Shown here piece by piece: positions 1,801 to 42,123 of a stretch of 64,000 nucleotides of DNA. This DNA is from a virus. The stretch lies in the IMG/VR virus record IMGVR_UViG_3300025141_013863, positions 26,333 to 90,332 of that record. One strand, given 5' to 3'. The stretch's first letter is position 1, and every line of letters begins with the position of its first letter. The notes below the pieces were generated by a model, which was given only the letters and a program-made list of their open reading frames with translations, was not told where the DNA came from and searched no databases. The position numbers were made by a program, and so were the translations under genes.

Positions 1801-2189
1801 AACTAGTTTGGGTAAATGGGTGTTTTGATGTTTTACATCGTGGGCATCTTGAAATGTTGAAGTATGCTAAGTCTCTCGGTGATTATTTAATGGTAGGCAT
1901 TGATTCTGATCAAAAAGTAAAGAAAGATAAAGGTAGTAATCGTCCGTTTAATAATGCTGAAGATCGTAAGTTTGCTTTAGAATCAATAAGATATGTTGAC
2001 AAGGTGCTGGTTTTTAATTCTCGTGCAGGATTAGAACACTTAATAAAACTATTAGAACCAGATTATATGGTTATTGGTTCGGACTGGAAAGGAAAAGAAG
2101 TTGTAGGTGAGTCATATTGCACAGAATTAAAATTTTTTGATAGAATAAGTACATACTCAACAACAAAGATCCTGGAAAATAATAAATGA
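1797..2189 (+). CDS. Cytidylyltransferase-family nucleotidyltransferase, HldE C-domain-like
   Basis: A protein of 130 residues with a GTG start in a GTGA overlap. The N-terminus WVNGCFDVLHRGH carries the HxGH motif (residues 14-17) of the nucleotidylyltransferase superfamily. The C-terminal STTKIL (about residues 121-126) corresponds to the ISTT-type motif. The size fits a stand-alone HldE C-domain, which adds a nucleotide to a sugar 1-phosphate. With the kinase upstream it would complete sugar activation. ADP, CDP or GDP specificity cannot be read from the sequence, and glycerol-3-phosphate cytidylyltransferase is a less likely alternative. Confidence 0.85.
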   Translation: MKLVWVNGCFDVLHRGHLEMLKYAKSLGDYLMVGIDSDQKVKKDKGSNRPFNNAEDRKFALESIRYVDKVLVFNSRAGLEHLIKLLEPDYMVIGSDWKGKEVVGESYCTELKFFDRISTYSTTKILENNK

Positions 2190-2524
2190 CGTTTGTATTT
2201 GACATCGACGGAACAATCTGCACTACTACAGACGGTGATTATGATTATGCAGAGCCAATACGGGAACGTATAGAGCTTATAAATAATTTATATGATGAAG
2301 GCCACACAATAGTTTTTCAAACAGCCAGAGGTATGGGCAGAACAAACAACAACCAACTGGCGGCATATGTAATGTTTTATAATTATACTGCGGAACAGCT
2401 AGAAAGTTGGGAAGTTAAATATCATGCCTTATATTTAGGCAAGCCATCTGGAGATATCTATGTTGACGATAAAGCGATGCGAGATGTTGATTTTTTTGAA
2501 CAAATGGAGAAATCTTTACAATGA
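2186..2524 (+). CDS. HAD-superfamily phosphatase, capsule/polysaccharide type
   Basis: A protein of 112 residues. It opens MTFVFDIDGTICTT, giving the HAD motif I DxDGT with Asp6 and Asp8. The motif II Thr is in FQTARG, and motif IV Asps are in DIYVDDKAM. The compact form without a large cap is typical of the small HAD proteins found in polysaccharide operons. A phosphatase step, such as removal of the C7 phosphate of a heptose bisphosphate, would fit between the kinase and nucleotidyltransferase. It overlaps both neighbours by four bases (ATGA). Confidence 0.8.
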   Translation: MTFVFDIDGTICTTTDGDYDYAEPIRERIELINNLYDEGHTIVFQTARGMGRTNNNQLAAYVMFYNYTAEQLESWEVKYHALYLGKPSGDIYVDDKAMRDVDFFEQMEKSLQ

Positions 2525-2886
2525 GCAAAAAGAAGCCACTATCAATGAAGCACGTCCCTAAAGGCTGGGGCTGGGAACGATGGATTGTAAATTGTCCAGA
2601 ATATTGCGGCAAGCTTTTGTTTTTTAATAAAGGGAAGCGATGTTCGTGGCATTATCACAAGATTAAAGATGAAGTATTTTACCTACAGTCTGGTAAAATG
2701 ATGGTTTACTATTCTATGAACGATGATATAAGAGAAGCAAGTCAAATAATACTTAATCCTGGTGAAAAATTTCATGTAGCAACTGGCTTGCGACATCAAA
2801 TGGTTGCACTGGAAGATAGCGAATTATTTGAATTTTCTACAGAACACTTCGACAGTGATAGCCACAGGATCATTAAAGGAGATTAA
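2521..2886 (+). CDS. Cupin-fold protein
   Basis: A protein of 121 residues with a single cupin barrel. The metal-site motif is read in CSWHYHKIKDEVFYLQSG (HxH and a Glu) and the second His in GLRHQMVA. The KGWGWERWIVN start resembles the phosphomannose-isomerase-like cupins found with nucleotide-sugar genes. It may be an isomerase or epimerase, or a sugar-binding protein of the pathway. The sequence does not decide between these. It starts in an ATGA overlap and is followed directly by the RmlB-like gene. Confidence 0.75.
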   Translation: MSKKKPLSMKHVPKGWGWERWIVNCPEYCGKLLFFNKGKRCSWHYHKIKDEVFYLQSGKMMVYYSMNDDIREASQIILNPGEKFHVATGLRHQMVALEDSELFEFSTEHFDSDSHRIIKGD

Positions 2887-3846
2887 ATGAAATTAGTTGT
2901 TATAACTGGATGTTTAGGACTAATTGGTATGCATGTTACAAGGCACTGTCTTGAAAAAGGATGGAAAGTGCTGGGCATTGATAAGATTACGTATGCATCT
3001 AATCCTAAAGTTTTAGGCCAGTTTTCATATTATGAAAATTTTGATTTTAGAAAAGAAGACATATGTGAGCTGAAACAAATGCCAGATTGTGATTACGTGA
3101 TCAACATAGCGGCCGAATCTCATGTTGGAAACAGTATTGTTGATAGTGAAAGCTTTATTCAATCTAATATCTTTGGCGTTAAACATCTTTTAGACTTAAT
3201 TAAAAATAAGCAAGACAATGTTAGTGATCGTCCTGTGTTTTTTCATTTTAGTACAGATGAAGTATACGGTGATATTACCAAAGGGGAGCACACCGAATTT
3301 GATATTCTTAAGCCAAGCAATCCATATTCTGCATCAAAAGCTGCAGCAGATATGTTAGTTCTTGCGTGGGCAAGAACTTATGGAATTAAATATTTAATCT
3401 TGCGCCCCACAAACAATTATGGGATAGGACAGTATCCTGAAAAACTAATACCGCTAGCTGTCAAAAATCTTATGAGAAATAAAAAAATTAAACTTCACGA
3501 CAAAGGAGAACCAATTAGAAACTGGCTACATGCTGAAGACACAGCTTCTGCGGTCACTACTTTAATTGAATCGGGAGTTGTAAACGAAATTTACAATGTA
3601 GCTGGCGGGTTTGAACAAAAGAATATAGAAACTATTATTAAAATTTTAGAATCTTATTTTGATGAAATAAGAGAAGAGGGTGATTGGAGTGAATATCTTG
3701 ATCTTTCATATGATAGAGAAGGCCAGGATGTTCGTTATGCTCTTAATGACCAGAAACTTCGTGCGCTTGGTTGGCGCCCCGAAAAACAATTTGATCGAGA
3801 GATTAAAAATATAGTTAATTTTTATAAAGATAATTTTAAATGGTAA
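2887..3846 (+). CDS. NAD(P)-dependent nucleotide-sugar dehydratase/epimerase, RmlB-like
   Basis: An extended short-chain dehydrogenase of 319 residues. The nucleotide-binding glycines are Gly8, Gly11 and Gly14 in TGCLGLIG. The catalytic region reads HFSTDEVYG, with the Asp-Glu pair used by 4,6-dehydratases, and NPYSASKAA, with Tyr147 and Lys151. RPTNNYG follows. The DEVYG motif is characteristic of dTDP-glucose 4,6-dehydratase rather than simple epimerases. Together with the His-type DegT protein upstream, it would turn an activated sugar into a 4-keto-6-deoxy and then a 3,6-dideoxy sugar. The nucleotide carrier is unknown. This is the last gene of the sugar module. Confidence 0.85.
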   Translation: MKLVVITGCLGLIGMHVTRHCLEKGWKVLGIDKITYASNPKVLGQFSYYENFDFRKEDICELKQMPDCDYVINIAAESHVGNSIVDSESFIQSNIFGVKHLLDLIKNKQDNVSDRPVFFHFSTDEVYGDITKGEHTEFDILKPSNPYSASKAAADMLVLAWARTYGIKYLILRPTNNYGIGQYPEKLIPLAVKNLMRNKKIKLHDKGEPIRNWLHAEDTASAVTTLIESGVVNEIYNVAGGFEQKNIETIIKILESYFDEIREEGDWSEYLDLSYDREGQDVRYALNDQKLRALGWRPEKQFDREIKNIVNFYKDNFKW

Positions 3847-4655: not shown

Positions 4656-5319
4656 AAATCATTATTTTACAAAAGACCATGAGAACGCTATAATTCAATA
4701 TAGCAACACCGATTGCATTAGAGAAAGAACAGAACTATATGTAAAATGGATCCAGCCAGCATTTAATGAAATGGTTGATAAGATTGTATTTACTTATAAA
4801 TTTACAAATTTACCAAATTGTGATGTTTTACGAGATGAATGTAAGATTTGGTTGATGACAATTCTTGATAAATATGATCCATCAAAAGGCTCCAAGGCCT
4901 TTTCTTATTTTTCAGTTATAACAAAAAACTGGTTTATTCATAAAGTCAAAAGGCAGCAAAAAAGAAATAAACGAGAAGTTGATTATGATAATATTTCTAA
5001 AAGATTCGAGGAAGAGTTTTTATCAACAAGTGAATCATACCTTTCTAACAGAGAAGAGAACGAATTTTGGAATTCTTTTTATGGGGAGCTAAAATCTTGG
5101 GATGCTTCAACGATGAAAGAAAATGATTTAAAAGTGTATAAGGCAATTAATATTCTTTTTGAATCAAAAGATGACATCGATATTTTTAATAAAAAAGCTA
5201 TTTACTTATACCTTCGCGAAATTACTGGCTTGAACACAAAACAGATTGTTAATTCATTAAAGAAATTTCGTAGAAAATATTATATTTTTAAACAAGATTG
5301 GGAAAATGGAGAGCTATGA
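4618..5319 (+). CDS. Late-transcription sigma factor, T4 gp55-like
   Basis: A 233-residue protein with a basic N-terminus. A sigma region 2-like stretch reads LDKYDPSKGSKAFSYF followed by SVITKNWFIHKVKRQ; FDPxxGxKFxTY is the equivalent in bacterial sigma70. T4 gp55 directs host RNA polymerase to late promoters of the form TATAAATA and needs a sliding clamp and a co-activator. The length (T4 gp55 is about 185 residues) and sequence fit a divergent member. The C-terminus is helical with aromatic residues. It would drive the structural genes in this window. A generic small sigma factor is the alternative. Confidence 0.7.
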   Translation: MTTQKKQTRKKRKNHYFTKDHENAIIQYSNTDCIRERTELYVKWIQPAFNEMVDKIVFTYKFTNLPNCDVLRDECKIWLMTILDKYDPSKGSKAFSYFSVITKNWFIHKVKRQQKRNKREVDYDNISKRFEEEFLSTSESYLSNREENEFWNSFYGELKSWDASTMKENDLKVYKAINILFESKDDIDIFNKKAIYLYLREITGLNTKQIVNSLKKFRRKYYIFKQDWENGEL

Positions 5320-5606
5320 ACAATAATGATTTAGAATCTCTGATTGACGAGGCGCTAGATAATATTCGTAACGACAGAAAAGCAGCTAGAGAGTTTCTTA
5401 ATGAGGTTGCAAATCAAATTGCAAATGATGCAGAACAAAATAAATATCTTAGCCCCGTAGCGGCCAAACACATTGAAACCCTTCAGAGATCTAATGAACA
5501 ATTAGTAAAGCTTATCGGCCTTCGACAAAAGGGCCGACCCCATTCGGTCTCTCTTTCTGACGAAGACAAGGATAGTATATTTGATATGATCCAGGGAGAG
5601 AACTAA
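5316..5606 (+). CDS. Small helical acidic protein next to the sigma factor (function unresolved)
   Basis: The start is ATG 5316, in an ATGA overlap with the sigma gene and after a GGAGAG site, giving 96 residues. The protein is mostly helical, with LIDEALDNIRNDRKAAREFL and a LQRSNEQLVKLIGL segment. It ends in an acidic-hydrophobic tail, DEDKDSIFDMIQGEN. Two roles are possible. A small terminase-like protein would fit the LQRSNEQ segment. A gp33-type late co-activator would fit the position and a clamp-binding-like tail. I cannot choose between them. Confidence 0.55.
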   Translation: MNNNDLESLIDEALDNIRNDRKAAREFLNEVANQIANDAEQNKYLSPVAAKHIETLQRSNEQLVKLIGLRQKGRPHSVSLSDEDKDSIFDMIQGEN

Positions 5607-6832
5607 TGTCTAAAGATTTTGTAGATCCGACCTTGTTATCTGATCCAATAGGCGCCCTGGATATGTATGGTAATTCTCTTAGACAAGCTATACGTTTTGA
5701 TGTCTATGAAGGTAAAACTGTTTTTGAGGCAATCGTTTTGTCAAAGCCAATTTTCCTTGCTGACGCCCAATTGGGCTCGGAAGCCTCCACTTTTAGCCAA
5801 GCATCTGTAGCTGAAGGAAGATTACAAAAATTTTCTTTCAAAGGAAGAATAGTTGATTCCCCTTCGCCTCACGATTTTTTGCCAGATCCATGTGATTTAA
5901 ACGATGCTAGCGATGATAAAATTAAAAAGAAGGTCATAAGGAGAACAAACCTTCATACAACATTTATATCTTCTGATGATTATACGAGAACAAACTCAAC
6001 TTTGCCTAATATTGGCGATAAGGTTCGCGTAGAGCTAACTAAAAATGTACACTCTTATAATTTACAATATGGCAAATTCCTTGGGATTGTAAGTAACTTG
6101 GTGGGCCCCGATGTTCCCAAAACCGAGCAATGTATATCAGCCAGAGTTGCTTTCGGCACTGGCACTGCCGCCGGCGTTGCCACCGCTACCGGCGGCAATA
6201 TGCCCGAGACTGGTTGGAAAATTACTGGAGATGCTCCTTGCACCGGTGAAACTGTAGTTTCTCCATTACCCCCCGGCGGTCGAAATAACGGCAGTTTTGC
6301 GTCTAGCCGGAAAGGATCCATTCATGGTGCTGCAGACTTTTCCGGCAAGATAGGTACCCCAATATTCGCCATAGCTGACGGGACGATCTCGGTGGCCTAC
6401 GCCGGCGAACGAGGCGCACCATGTCCCGATGCCGGCAAGCCCACGTGCGGGCCCAATAAATGCGGAAACATGGTCTGGCCATGCCATTGCGGCGGTTGTA
6501 TGGGAAATTATATAATGATTACACACACTGGGACAGATGAGGGACGAAAAATTGTTTCTTATTATGCACATTTAAGCAGCTATACTGTCGCCAAAGGAGC
6601 CACGGTGACAGCCGGGCAACAAATTGGCACTATGGGAACTACAGGCAATAGTAGCGGCCCGCATCTTCATTTAGAGGTCCGCATCAAGGGTTCCCCAATC
6701 GGTCATGGCTCGAAAGGAAAAGTTGATCCTATAGCCTATATGAGCAAGAATGCAGGGGGCAAGTGTGGCGCCGCCGCGCCAGCCGCTGCACCGGCGCCGG
6801 CGGCCGGCGCCGCCGCATCCACTGGCACGTAA
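5606..6832 (+). CDS. Baseplate hub protein fused to an M23 peptidase
   Basis: A protein of 408 residues. Residues 1-175 form a hub-like domain containing TVFEAIVLSKPIFLADAQ and a beta-rich stretch ending near KFLGIVSNLVGP. An Ala/Gly/Thr-rich linker follows. Residues about 235-370 form an M23 metallopeptidase with the HxxxD zinc motif in IHGAADFSG and the HLH motif in GPHLHLEV. M23 enzymes cut peptidoglycan cross-bridges. At the baseplate tip this would open the cell wall during DNA entry, the role of T4 gp5 lysozyme. The C-terminal tail is Ala/Pro-rich. The linker and peptidase DNA is visibly richer in G+C than the first 500 bases, which may indicate acquisition of the enzyme domain. Confidence 0.85.
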   Translation: MSKDFVDPTLLSDPIGALDMYGNSLRQAIRFDVYEGKTVFEAIVLSKPIFLADAQLGSEASTFSQASVAEGRLQKFSFKGRIVDSPSPHDFLPDPCDLNDASDDKIKKKVIRRTNLHTTFISSDDYTRTNSTLPNIGDKVRVELTKNVHSYNLQYGKFLGIVSNLVGPDVPKTEQCISARVAFGTGTAAGVATATGGNMPETGWKITGDAPCTGETVVSPLPPGGRNNGSFASSRKGSIHGAADFSGKIGTPIFAIADGTISVAYAGERGAPCPDAGKPTCGPNKCGNMVWPCHCGGCMGNYIMITHTGTDEGRKIVSYYAHLSSYTVAKGATVTAGQQIGTMGTTGNSSGPHLHLEVRIKGSPIGHGSKGKVDPIAYMSKNAGGKCGAAAPAAAPAPAAGAAASTGT

Positions 6833-6842
6833 AGGAAATATA

Positions 6843-7107
6843 ATGGGAAAAGATTTTTTAGATCCAGGTCTGTTTTCGGATGCAATATCTGCAATAGATC
6901 TGCACAACAACATGGTTAGACAGCGCTTACGCGGTTTTGATGCTTTTGGAGGGAGAACCGTTTTTGAGGCAATCGTTTTATCAAAACCTATTTTCCTTGC
7001 TGATGCACAGACAGGCGCCGAATCCTCCACCTTTAGCCAAGCATCTGTAGAAGAAGGAAGGCTGGCTTGCAAAAGAGCCATGGCATTGGAGCTATAGCGG
7101 CGGATGA
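6843..7107 (+). pseudogene. Truncated hub paralog with out-of-frame M15 peptidase remnant
   Basis: From ATG 6843 the frame gives 84 residues. Residues 1-73 closely match the N-terminus of the preceding hub gene, including an identical TVFEAIVLSKPIFLADAQ and STFSQASV. After EEGR the match stops and the frame ends at 7097. In the +1 frame, bases 7060-7107 read GWLAKEPWHWSYSGG and a stop. EPWHW is the C-terminal zinc-site motif of M15 D-Ala-D-Ala carboxypeptidase/endolysin domains. That stop (TGA 7105-7107) forms the usual ATGA overlap with the next gene. The simplest reading is a former hub-M15 fusion that lost most of its peptidase by an internal deletion. The short N-domain may still be made. 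Confidence 0.7.
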
Positions 7108-8186
7108 GTAAAAAAATATTTAATGATGACTTTTTCGGAAAATTTCGAAGATCCGAAGATCCCAAGATGCCCGGTGCGGATCCGGAAAAGGATGAAGATG
7201 AGGTTCCTGTAGGTGCGGAGGATCCTCCCTCCCGACCTAGGTTTTCAACTTTACATAAACAAATTCAAGATGGAAAACGCTTCTTTCAAATTCCGGATCG
7301 CGCAGGGCCCATGCAGACCGATTCCGCGGAGCCGAAAATTTCCTTTCGGCCGGCCCCTAGCCAGAGAGTTATAAGCAAAAGAAGCTCATACATAGTCTTT
7401 GGTAAAGACAGGCCTTGCCAACTGCCTTCTGGATATGGCGGAAAGGGCGCCCTAGGTGCTGATGCAATTGATATTGTTGTTGGAAGAATGTCATCCTTGC
7501 CAAAAGTTAATACGAGAAAGCGGCCGAGAATTGTCAATAGTCATTTTGGAGCAGATGCCGCTAGAATATATATTAGTCAATTAACAGATATTGATACAAA
7601 CTTTGCCATTGCCGATGGGGTCATCGGCAACATTAAGGCCCGTTCCGGTATTGGTATAAAAGCAGACGTAGTAAGAATTGTTGGCAGAGAAGGAATCAAA
7701 ATTGTCACCGGTAAAGGGGAATTCCCCGGATTTGGATCATCTGGTGAGCCAAACTCTCTTGGAGGAAAAATAATACAGCCTTCCCCCACAATTGAGCTAA
7801 TAGCAGGAAATTACGACGGCCCTAGAACGGTGTTTGGAGGAATGTTTCTGCCACGAGAATCCATAAATAGCCTACAACCAGTTGTAGCCGGCGATAATTT
7901 AAATTCTGCGTTGAAAGATTTAAATGGAATTATTGAAAAAATAATGTCCGCTATATTTAATTTAGCAGTCATTCAGTCTGCTTTTAACGCTGCAATTGGA
8001 GTAAACCTTTGGCCGGCGAATAGTCCTCATTATGGTGCCGCCGGCGGTGCGTCTGCAACACAAATAATAGATATGGTAATTAATAATATATGGCAAACAA
8101 GAATAAATGCTAATTTATGGGAGAACAATTATTGTACTCCCTACGGATACAAATATATCTGCAGTAGAAATGTCTTTGCCACATAA
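7104..8186 (+). CDS. Baseplate-associated structural protein
   Basis: A 360-residue protein with no enzyme motif. The first 60 residues are charged and probably disordered. The middle is beta-rich with repeating I/V strands (about residues 165-200, ADGVIGNIKARSGIGIKAD), resembling a short beta-helix or spike. The C-terminus holds hydrophobic helices and an Ala/Gly-rich segment. It lies between hub genes and the wedge cluster, so a spike or hub-cap role is reasonable. No specific T4 homolog is recognised. Confidence 0.6.
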   Translation: MSKKIFNDDFFGKFRRSEDPKMPGADPEKDEDEVPVGAEDPPSRPRFSTLHKQIQDGKRFFQIPDRAGPMQTDSAEPKISFRPAPSQRVISKRSSYIVFGKDRPCQLPSGYGGKGALGADAIDIVVGRMSSLPKVNTRKRPRIVNSHFGADAARIYISQLTDIDTNFAIADGVIGNIKARSGIGIKADVVRIVGREGIKIVTGKGEFPGFGSSGEPNSLGGKIIQPSPTIELIAGNYDGPRTVFGGMFLPRESINSLQPVVAGDNLNSALKDLNGIIEKIMSAIFNLAVIQSAFNAAIGVNLWPANSPHYGAAGGASATQIIDMVINNIWQTRINANLWENNYCTPYGYKYICSRNVFAT

Positions 8187-24700: not shown

Positions 24701-27700
24701 TGAAAAGATTTATTTTAACAGCACGACTTTAAATGATGAGCTAGGCTTGCCTAATATGGAAACTGTTACTGCGTATGATCAAGTTTTATCGATTATACAG
24801 TCGGCCGATTATTCATTAAATTGGATTATGTATTGCGAAAATGTTTTCCCATCTTTAAGAAACGAATTTGTTTCCTCGTCTCGCGAAAGAATTGGTTTTG
24901 ATAATAAATTTTGGAGAGATGCATCAATAGATCGCTTGGCGGTTGGAAATGCTTTGAAAAATTCCTTTGGTGTAAGGTCTCCCGCTGTTTCACAAAGTTG
25001 TTGGCCCTTAGACGCGCCGGCTAATTTCTTGACGCGCTCAAAAGTGCCAAATGTTGGAACTGGCGGCGGCGATCATGATTTCTTTGAAGAGGGTCAAGCA
25101 GGAGAGCTTCAAAATACTTATTTTGCATATCACACAGGCGCCGCCAAGACCAGCGATGAAGTGTTTACTTTCATGGCCCCCGCCGCCCTTTACGCCAGAA
25201 AACACACTCTTAGTTCACCATTTTCGGTGGCATCTCCATCAGGAATGGATATTCCAGAAACAGGAAGTATTTCAATTGGAGTTCCATTTTGGAAAGGCAG
25301 CTCGCAGATTGATATTTATGCAGGCGAAGCAGTATGGGAAGCCGGCTCACAAGCTGGAATTGTTACAGTTTCTGGTTCTACCTCAATTTTTCAAGCGACC
25401 GCTTCTATTCCCTGGTTCAACGATTATGATGATTATAAAGAAGACTTATTATTGTTGGCTCGCGACTACTCCATTATTCCAGAATTTAGGATTAGTGAAC
25501 ATATCGAAGATTACATAAAGTATGGCTTGGCATCAAAAAATAAATCAAACACTTTCGAGATTCCAGGGACATCAATCAACAGCTCGACAAGTTCTTTTTA
25601 TGTAGATTATTCTAATTCTGAGTTTATGACAGAATTTCTCAACATTAAGCAAGATTCATTGCTTGATGCAACAGAAATTAGATTAGTATGTAGCGCTGCA
25701 ATTAGATTTAATCCGTATAAAGGGTTTTATCCCGCACAAAGAACTTTAGATCTAGTCTCACAGTTTTCTCGTTCTTATGGCGATGGATTGTTTGCGTCCA
25801 AGAAGGGCGACGGTACACAATTTTCAGTCGCCGGCGAAGAGCTTATCAAGAACAGGCCGGGCTTATTGAGGCCTTTGATGACGACACTATATTCTCCAGG
25901 TATTTTATTCAACAGTATTAAATCTGGACTGGCAGTTAATTATCCAGGAATAACTGATACTAGAAAATTAAGTGCATCATATTATGGTAAATCAAAATTA
26001 GAAAATACAGAAAATTGGATGATCACGCCGGCCCTCCCTCCCAATAGTACAAAAGTTGGATATCGCGGCGGAGAGTTCTGGGACATTAAAGTTCCTTTCG
26101 AGGCCATCTTAGCCCCAGAAAAATATATTGCAGGGATACAATTTTTGGATATAGAGCCCCACCCCTCTTGTTCTCTGAATGCAACTGCTTCTTTGGGAGC
26201 GGCAAGTGATGAAATTTATTCTATGATGGCCAGTAATTTTCTCGGAGAAGTTGGGTCTTTCTTCTTGAAAGATAATATGTTTACACAGCTTGCCTCTGAG
26301 CCAGTTACAGATGATCTAAGATTTACATCCGGTAGCGTTTATGGGGCTAGAATAAAGTTAAGAAGATCTGTGTCGGGCTCTAGAGGTTATCTTCTAGAAT
26401 CTGGCTCTGTTGGAGGAAGCGATCCATATGATCTAACAGGTGGTAGAATTTATGATTCAACTTTGGGGGCATATCAAAACGGTGCCTTTCCAATACCACA
26501 AGATCCAAGAGCAACTAACAAATCTTTTCAAGAAAGTTTTACAATGTATTCTCGCCCCTCCGCCTTCGGTCCTCCCGTTGCCGGCCAACCGGATTCAACA
26601 GGATCGAAAGACTCAGTTGTCTTAGCTTCAGATCCATTAGATAGTGTAAATGGGTATTATTGGTCATTCACCCCTCCATATTACAATGGTGAAGCTTGGT
26701 GCGATGTAATTTTTAGACCGGATAGTACGAAAAGCTATGATTTAGAACAAATATTAGCTGAGGCCTCTTTGGTATATTGGCGAGCTGATCCTGGGATTGG
26801 CACAGGTAGTGCTGGCTATTTGGGCTCTAATCCTGTTTTAATCTCCTCTTTTGGTTCTGCCTCATTTACAAATGCTGATAATTATATTTATTCTGGACAC
26901 AATGTTAATGCAAACGCTATGCAAATCAGCGCCAGCATTAATTTGCTTGGTGTTGAAAGGGTCTTGCAGCAAGAAGAAGATAAGTTTGGAAACAAGATCA
27001 AAGGCACAAATATTACCGCAGCAAAACGTTGGGTAATTCAGCCAAAATGGGAAACCCCAATGCTCAATTTTGGTAATCAAGGGGTGCACCCAATAACCGA
27101 AAATGATGGTAACTTAACATTGCCTGATTATGGAAAAGCATCAGTGCCAAGAGGGATGTGGCATCAATTTGGTATAATGCCAGAATCGCCAGATAAAGGA
27201 ATTTTCTTAGAAATTGGAGATATTCCAAAGGATTGGTTAAAAAATCATTACGATGTATTAACAAACGATACCGTTTATAATAATGATGATGCTGATACCG
27301 GCGACAAGGTATTTAAAGAAATGCAATCTTTAACAGATCTGGCAGGCTTTAAATCATCAACGTCAAAGCGCTTAGGAGAAATAGCAGAAAGTAAAATTAT
27401 CAGGGAAGCAGTTGTGGCGGTTCCTTATGTAATACAGAATGAAGCAGGCATATCTAACGAGGCTAGCGCACTTACATCGACCATGAAGTCTCTTATAAGC
27501 ATTCCAAAACAGAGATATGAAGCTGCCATGTCTAGTGCTAAGGGAACGGCGGAAGGTGATTCATTAGATGCCGCTGGAGAGTCAATAAGAAAGCTAGTTC
27601 AAAAAATGGAAAGGTACGTTTTGCCACCTCAGTTTGACTTCCTAACTAATCCAGATGTTGATCCGGTTGTTATGTATATTTTTGAATTTAAGTATATTTT

Positions 27701-41868: not shown

Positions 41869-42123
41869 ATGGCTAGAAGAAAAAACACAAAATTTATTGA
41901 TCCTCGTTATTTTATGGACGAGAAGGAGGAGGCGCTGAGTGAGGCTACAGATCCCCACGATCAGCCCGCCGGCGGCGAATCGGGCCAAGATGATCCAGAC
42001 AAGATAGAGAAATGTAAAAGTGAAGGTGGAAAATGGAGATACGCCAAAGAGTCCAAAGGCCCCGAATCCAAAAGCTATGATCTCTCTAGAGGCTTGAAAG
42101 GCTATTGCGAAAAAAAGAAATGA
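41869..42123 (+). CDS. Small charged protein, function unknown
   Basis: An 84-residue hydrophilic protein after a TAGGAG site. It starts MARRKNTKFIDPRYFMDEKE, has a disordered Pro/Gly/Asp-rich centre, and ends in a Cys/Lys-rich segment (KCKSEGGKWRYAKESKG ... GYCEKKK). Two cysteines may form a disulfide or metal site. No family is recognised. It is linked by an ATGA overlap to the first gene of the shared-N-terminus set. Confidence 0.5.
   Translation: MARRKNTKFIDPRYFMDEKEEALSEATDPHDQPAGGESGQDDPDKIEKCKSEGGKWRYAKESKGPESKSYDLSRGLKGYCEKKK

Follow-up and report, generated by a model that had tools for sequence, protein, structure and literature searches.

Probable remnant of a hub-M15 peptidase gene in the enzyme-exchanging hub slot of an uncultured phage

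The DNA analyzed here (the window) is a stretch of 64,000 nucleotides and is part of the 90,332-base record of a marine bacterial virus (IMG/VR IMGVR_UViG_3300025141_013863, positions 26,333 to 90,332). The genes of the hub slot and the two flanking genes lie on the plus strand. A conserved gene of ~100 amino acids (5298..5606), shown by a family search over loci to precede the hub slot in well-covered relatives, probably starts with the ATG at 5316, which gives an ATGA overlap at 5316-5319. It is followed by an intact hub-M23 gene (5606..6832), whose product consists of an N-terminal OB-fold-like hub domain (residues 1-170) and a Peptidase_M23 domain (residues 239-365; Pfam E 9.6e-23). GC content reaches its window maximum in the enzyme part of this gene (56% compared with 40.6% for the window), which is consistent with a recent import. 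Orthology with the M23 domain of the related locus L010 was rejected because the two were 29% identical, no closer than to others, and the two M23 domains were probably imported independently. Behind the slot lies a conserved gene (7104..8186) of a family found in at least 80 loci, which probably encodes a tail spike or tip protein and is referred to as spike-like for that reason. Its AlphaFold model (mean pLDDT 73.6) has a beta-rich middle and long C-terminal helices, and a search of solved structures with the model gave nothing credible. No relatives of the spike-like gene were found among genome contigs, and GenBank phages gave no match to this gene or to the hub domain. A gp25-like baseplate gene is located downstream of the slot.

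In the AlphaFold model of hub-M23, OB-like strands were found within residues 34-170. This region aligned to chains of the phage P1 baseplate (Z 7.3) and the PVC spike (Z 6.8), and unrelated OB proteins scored higher. The enzyme part of the full model had low confidence (mean pLDDT 57), and the structure was interpreted from the hub domain alone, for which no sequence match was detectable in Pfam or PHROGs. From these results, the hub domain may be a tail-tip domain of the OB type, although OB folds are common, and hub proteins would be located at the tail tip, where they would cut the wall during entry. In T4 gp5, a hub-lysozyme, an N-terminal OB-type domain at the tail tip is followed by a wall enzyme, and baseplate genes lie nearby. 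The hub-M23 gene would resemble this arrangement in its putative OB-type N-terminal domain, its wall enzyme, and its proximity to baseplate genes, but here the spike-like part is a separate gene and the enzyme is a peptidase.

Between hub-M23 and the spike-like gene is an open reading frame (ORF) of 84 codons (6843..7097; ATG 6843, TAG 7095-7097), flanked on either side of the slot by both marker genes. Codons 1 to ~72 encode hub domain and the remainder is out-of-frame M15 sequence. The product matched the hub HMM over its first ~75 residues (E 7e-15) and was 68-69% identical to residues 1-75 of hub-M23; past base ~7060, the hub frame yields the meaningless residues LACKRAMALEL. The +1 frame, open from 7051 (KKEGWLAK...), encodes the C-terminal remnant of an M15 peptidase, KKEGWLAKEPWHWSYSGG, up to the TGA at 7105-7107 (7051..7107), of which the part at 7060-7104 is GWLAKEPWHWSYSGG. 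The junction of the hub part with the M15 tail therefore falls within ~7051-7075. The TGA overlaps the ATG of the spike-like gene as ATGA (7104-7107), and ATGA overlaps likewise end the window genes at 1516, 2189, 2524, and 5319. The initial annotation had given the short gene, the EPWHW frame, and this overlap with exactly these coordinates and letters.

We next built an M15 HMM (191 positions) from four intact full-length hub-M15 enzymes of relatives and used it to scan the complete six-frame set of 2,385 stop-to-stop fragments from the window. The fragment +7051-7104 was the top match (E 0.017; next match, E 5), and KEPWHWSYSGG aligned to HMM positions 180-190 of 191, so the C-terminal zinc-site motif E-P-W-H is present. 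Because the fragment ranked first and aligned where a C-terminal remnant should match, we judged the resemblance to be other than chance, in agreement with the earlier reading from the letters that an M15 remnant is hidden in the next frame. EPWHW occurs once in the whole window, in this copy, and a domain search detected no VanY/M15 domain in the entire 90,332-base record. The remnant comprises 18 codons; the domain is incomplete, and HxxGxAxD, the first zinc motif, is missing. It represents the vestige of a gene for an M15 peptidase and does not encode such an enzyme itself; as in a pseudogene, an intact syntenic hub-M15 homologue exists in relatives while here the frame is destroyed and catalytic residues are lost. 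The remnant matched the C termini of the proteins at loci L011, L012, and L067, and, with only 18 codons left in the M15 frame, the identity of the parent gene can be traced no further than this end. A search with the clade alignment for an intact hub-M15 gene of the window's own lineage returned known loci only, and a pattern search of other contigs for tails of the AKEPWHW[ST][YF]SGG type found only the contig identical to the window described below.

Intact hub-M15 genes were found in synteny in two relatives. L005/L012 (IMG/VR 3300006736_003596; hereafter L012) and L011 (IMG/VR 3300030117_008021) each carry, in the same gene order, just one hub-M15 gene (485 and 447 amino acids, respectively), which immediately precedes the same downstream gene. 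The L011 product matched Pfam VanY above the cut-off of 25 bits (27.9 bits, E 2.2e-6) and ends with YDKEPWHWSFDGK; that of L012 was just below it (23.8 bits, E 4e-5) and ends with YDREPWHWSFDGH. Both HEMGLAVDF and EPWHW are present in the two proteins, and the L011 gene stops in an ATGA overlap with the next start, as in the window. Compared with these genes, the short gene of the window lacks ~360-400 codons. The suggestion that the ancestral gene was a hub domain plus an M15 enzyme is thus backed by syntenic intact genes, one of them with the identical overlap, and a short gene with an EPWHW-free end common to all relatives, which would have spoken against it, was not seen among them.

In a tree of the spike-like gene, the window and loci L009, L010, L011, and L012 formed one clade (support 100/99). 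L009, from metagenome 3300002514, which also yielded the contig identical to the window, encodes a hub with another C-terminal domain, followed by an ORF of 104 amino acids in which M15 is represented by its C-terminal part alone (VanY positions 84-131 of 132, E 0.04; E 3e-6 against the M15 end of L012 in a small search). This ORF ends with GGEPWHWSYDGG, and 21 bases of its M15 tail, GAGCCATGGCATTGGAGCTAT, are identical to those of the window tail. Since L009 holds a second and differently truncated M15 remnant, M15 beside the downstream gene would most simply be ancestral in the clade and have been damaged in two different ways. No trace of M15 was found in L010, which belongs to the same clade and has two hubs, and among the hub-spike gaps listed, no clear scar was seen except that of L009.

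Furthermore, we surveyed the hub slot in 80 loci with the downstream spike-like gene. The order of ~100-amino-acid gene, hub gene or genes, and downstream gene was found in most of the sufficiently covered loci. The slot holds one to three hub genes, with two or three in eight distinct loci, the window included. In seven of these eight, the hub N-terminal domains are each other's closest kin within the genome (the eighth, L063/L065, does not resolve), and the C-terminal enzyme clusters differ within each intact array. A Pfam scan of 64 hub proteins gave VanY in 22, M23 in 6, and Amidase_2 in 3, with further matches, some weak, to muramidase, DUF2272, phage lysozyme, SLT, and glucosaminidase. 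On a tree of 55 loci with 26 clusters, the enzyme cluster adjoining the downstream gene changed at least 39 times. The clearest exchange was seen between L028 and L085, from different metagenomes, which share 99.0% DNA identity as far as the hub domain extends and 92.4% from the spike gene onward; between these points, one has Amidase_2 and its counterpart M23. A similar pair is L035 (muramidase) and L038 (M23). These results show that the enzyme behind the hub is often exchanged and that tandem hubs with different enzymes exist; in the window, one of the two is broken. In the divergent loci L078, L081, L084, and L087, the slot is occupied by a long protein or other genes, with no detectable hub domain. 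L022 and L023 carry, between a sigma-like gene and the slot, a 335-amino-acid ORF (2172-3179) resembling cytochrome c oxidase subunit II by eye, possibly an auxiliary metabolic gene.

The two hub segments of the window (72 aligned codons) gave dS 0.97, dN 0.21, and dN/dS 0.22, the ratio being an average over both copies. As this ratio implies selection on both copies over the greater part of the period after their separation, and as the M15 tail is well kept, the second copy appears to have been long under selection and the break to be recent relative to the divergence. The 3' part of the two copies is more similar at the DNA level, and possible gene conversion between them makes this timing uncertain.

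Taken together, the 265-base stretch is very probably a recent pseudogene, the leftover of a hub-M15 gene that stood between hub-M23 and the spike-like gene and suffered an internal loss in what would be a cargo slot. A second hub gene with an M15 (VanY-type) peptidase would have lost ~360-400 codons, so that hub codon ~72 now adjoins, out of frame, the final ~12 enzyme codons. Retention of the end of the M15 gene may be due to its overlap with the start, and probably also the translation signals, of the gene that follows; since the truncated ORF stops 6 bases before the next ATG, translational coupling could persist. More generally, hub domains would be duplicated in tandem or homogenized within a genome, the enzymes behind them swapped, and superseded copies lost. 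The likeliest course would be that the hub was duplicated, M23 was acquired behind one copy, and the other copy lost its M15, so that the window would be a snapshot of M15 being replaced by M23; this order of duplication, exchange, and loss is our inference.

The main rival is a single junction between the genomes of two phages, in which illegitimate recombination joined an incoming hub-M23 and the start of another hub to the tail of a resident hub-M15. Such a genome would never have had complete M23 and M15 hubs, and the tail would still be an M15 relic, as in the internal-loss reading. This course is possible but rather doubtful. It would fit the frequent exchange of enzymes at the slot, where the downstream border is the spike start, as well as the foreign composition of the M23 part and the M15 tail retained in L009 behind another hub enzyme. 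However, the truncated hub is closest to hub-M23 of the same genome, which would fit a resident paralog (although a two-hub donor would give the same picture), and the scar lies inside the hub domain, whereas the exchanges between close relatives fall at its border. As no intact intermediate from the window lineage was found, an internal deletion and a two-genome junction are indistinguishable. Accordingly, the earlier proposal that the phage had two hubs, with M23 and M15, and lost one holds insofar as multi-hub relatives carry different enzymes; intact hub-M23 and hub-M15 may have coexisted in one genome, but a two-phage junction gives the same scar.

It is very unlikely that the short gene works as it stands, whether through its 84-amino-acid product or through one that ends in EPWHWSYSGG after a +1 frameshift; such a role could be, for instance, that of a leader in the translation of the spike gene. 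A ribosome-binding-like AAAGGA precedes the ATG at 6843, there is no internal stop, the ORF stop is placed 6 bases before the next ATG, and the dN/dS of 0.22 would suit a working gene. Yet the OB-fold strands after residue 75 are missing, the AlphaFold comparison showing the ORF to be without most of them, and the short form was kept by none of the relatives found. The frameshift product lacks HxxGxAxD and thus cannot be an M15 enzyme, and a programmed +1 frameshift was rejected as a route to an active enzyme for the same lack of the first zinc motif. An assembly chimera, in which similarity between the hub copies led the assembler to collapse an intact hub-M15 gene, is very improbable. Exact runs of ~20 bases are common to both copies, and contig 3300002514_000109 breaks within the M23 domain, at window base 6494, perhaps owing to sequence variation at that point in the sample. 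Against this, the junction unites unlike sequences (hub codon 72 and the M15 tail) rather than a long repeat, and the ~360-400 missing codons are beyond what a single wrong base explains. The same contig also matches the window over 35,193 bases, junction included, with 8 N and no other mismatch; this identity speaks against chance misassembly, although the two records may share a sample and are not independent if assembled from the same reads.

Exchange of unrelated enzyme domains behind a conserved domain is already known in phage proteins, with endolysins and baseplate proteins named as sites of mosaicism (PMC10684548). Our case resembles that domain shuffling but takes place at a single tail-hub slot of an uncultured phage group, where hubs occur in tandem and the wreck of a displaced enzyme is visible; the word "hub" is absent from the text of PMC10684548. 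According to a survey of enterococcal phages, tail-module proteins bear various wall-cutting domains, including endopeptidases (PMC10194240). The phages of that survey infect one Gram-positive genus, whereas in our loci the hub domain is common to as many as three paralogs in tandem. The nearest isolate by terminase (47%) was Flavobacterium phage immuto (NC_055915), which has a like order of a 101-amino-acid gene, a 938-amino-acid protein (gp033, carboxypeptidase; 156554-159370) ending in VanY, and a 323-amino-acid gene. No hub domain was detectable in the slot protein, and immuto was rejected as a homolog because its flanking genes and the non-enzyme part have no sequence similarity to the window family. 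Within the open papers searched, the combination of tandem copies in a tail-hub slot, very frequent exchange there, and an intermediate that has been preserved seems to be new. This locus shows how a phage may change its wall-opening tool: the hub would be copied, one copy would receive a different enzyme, and its twin would be discarded. Steps of this kind are commonly deduced from their final products, but here one locus offers a broken intermediate together with intact relatives and a near-identical pair differing in the enzyme. The hub slot could also indicate the wall chemistry of the hosts.

More tentatively, the hub slot might be a general cargo port, with tandem hubs loading several effectors on one tail tip at once. 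If so, the cargo would include unusual effectors (phosphatase-like, GDSL-like, and alpha/beta-hydrolase-like), in the manner of the evolved VgrG of type VI secretion, and superseded cargo would leave scars from which exchange can be read in the sequence. In three-gene arrays, the hubs L063:472-1941 and L074:3486-4811 carry a phosphatase-like domain with an HCxHGxDRTG signature (Pfam DSPc, E 2e-4 and 9e-5, respectively, under the curated cut-off), which is a strange cargo for a tail hub. The hub cargo at L075:548-1801 is GDSL lipase-like (E 0.0013, under the cut-off), and that at L077:1224-2582 is, by eye only, alpha/beta hydrolase-like. Elsewhere in the window, six small proteins (at 42120, 42577, 46121, 48085, 48536, and 56566) begin with a near-identical peptide, MKITKSQLKQIIKEELEE, reminiscent of a shared targeting tag. 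A similar peptide, MKVLLTESQLTMVLKEE, opens the truncated M15 ORF of L009.
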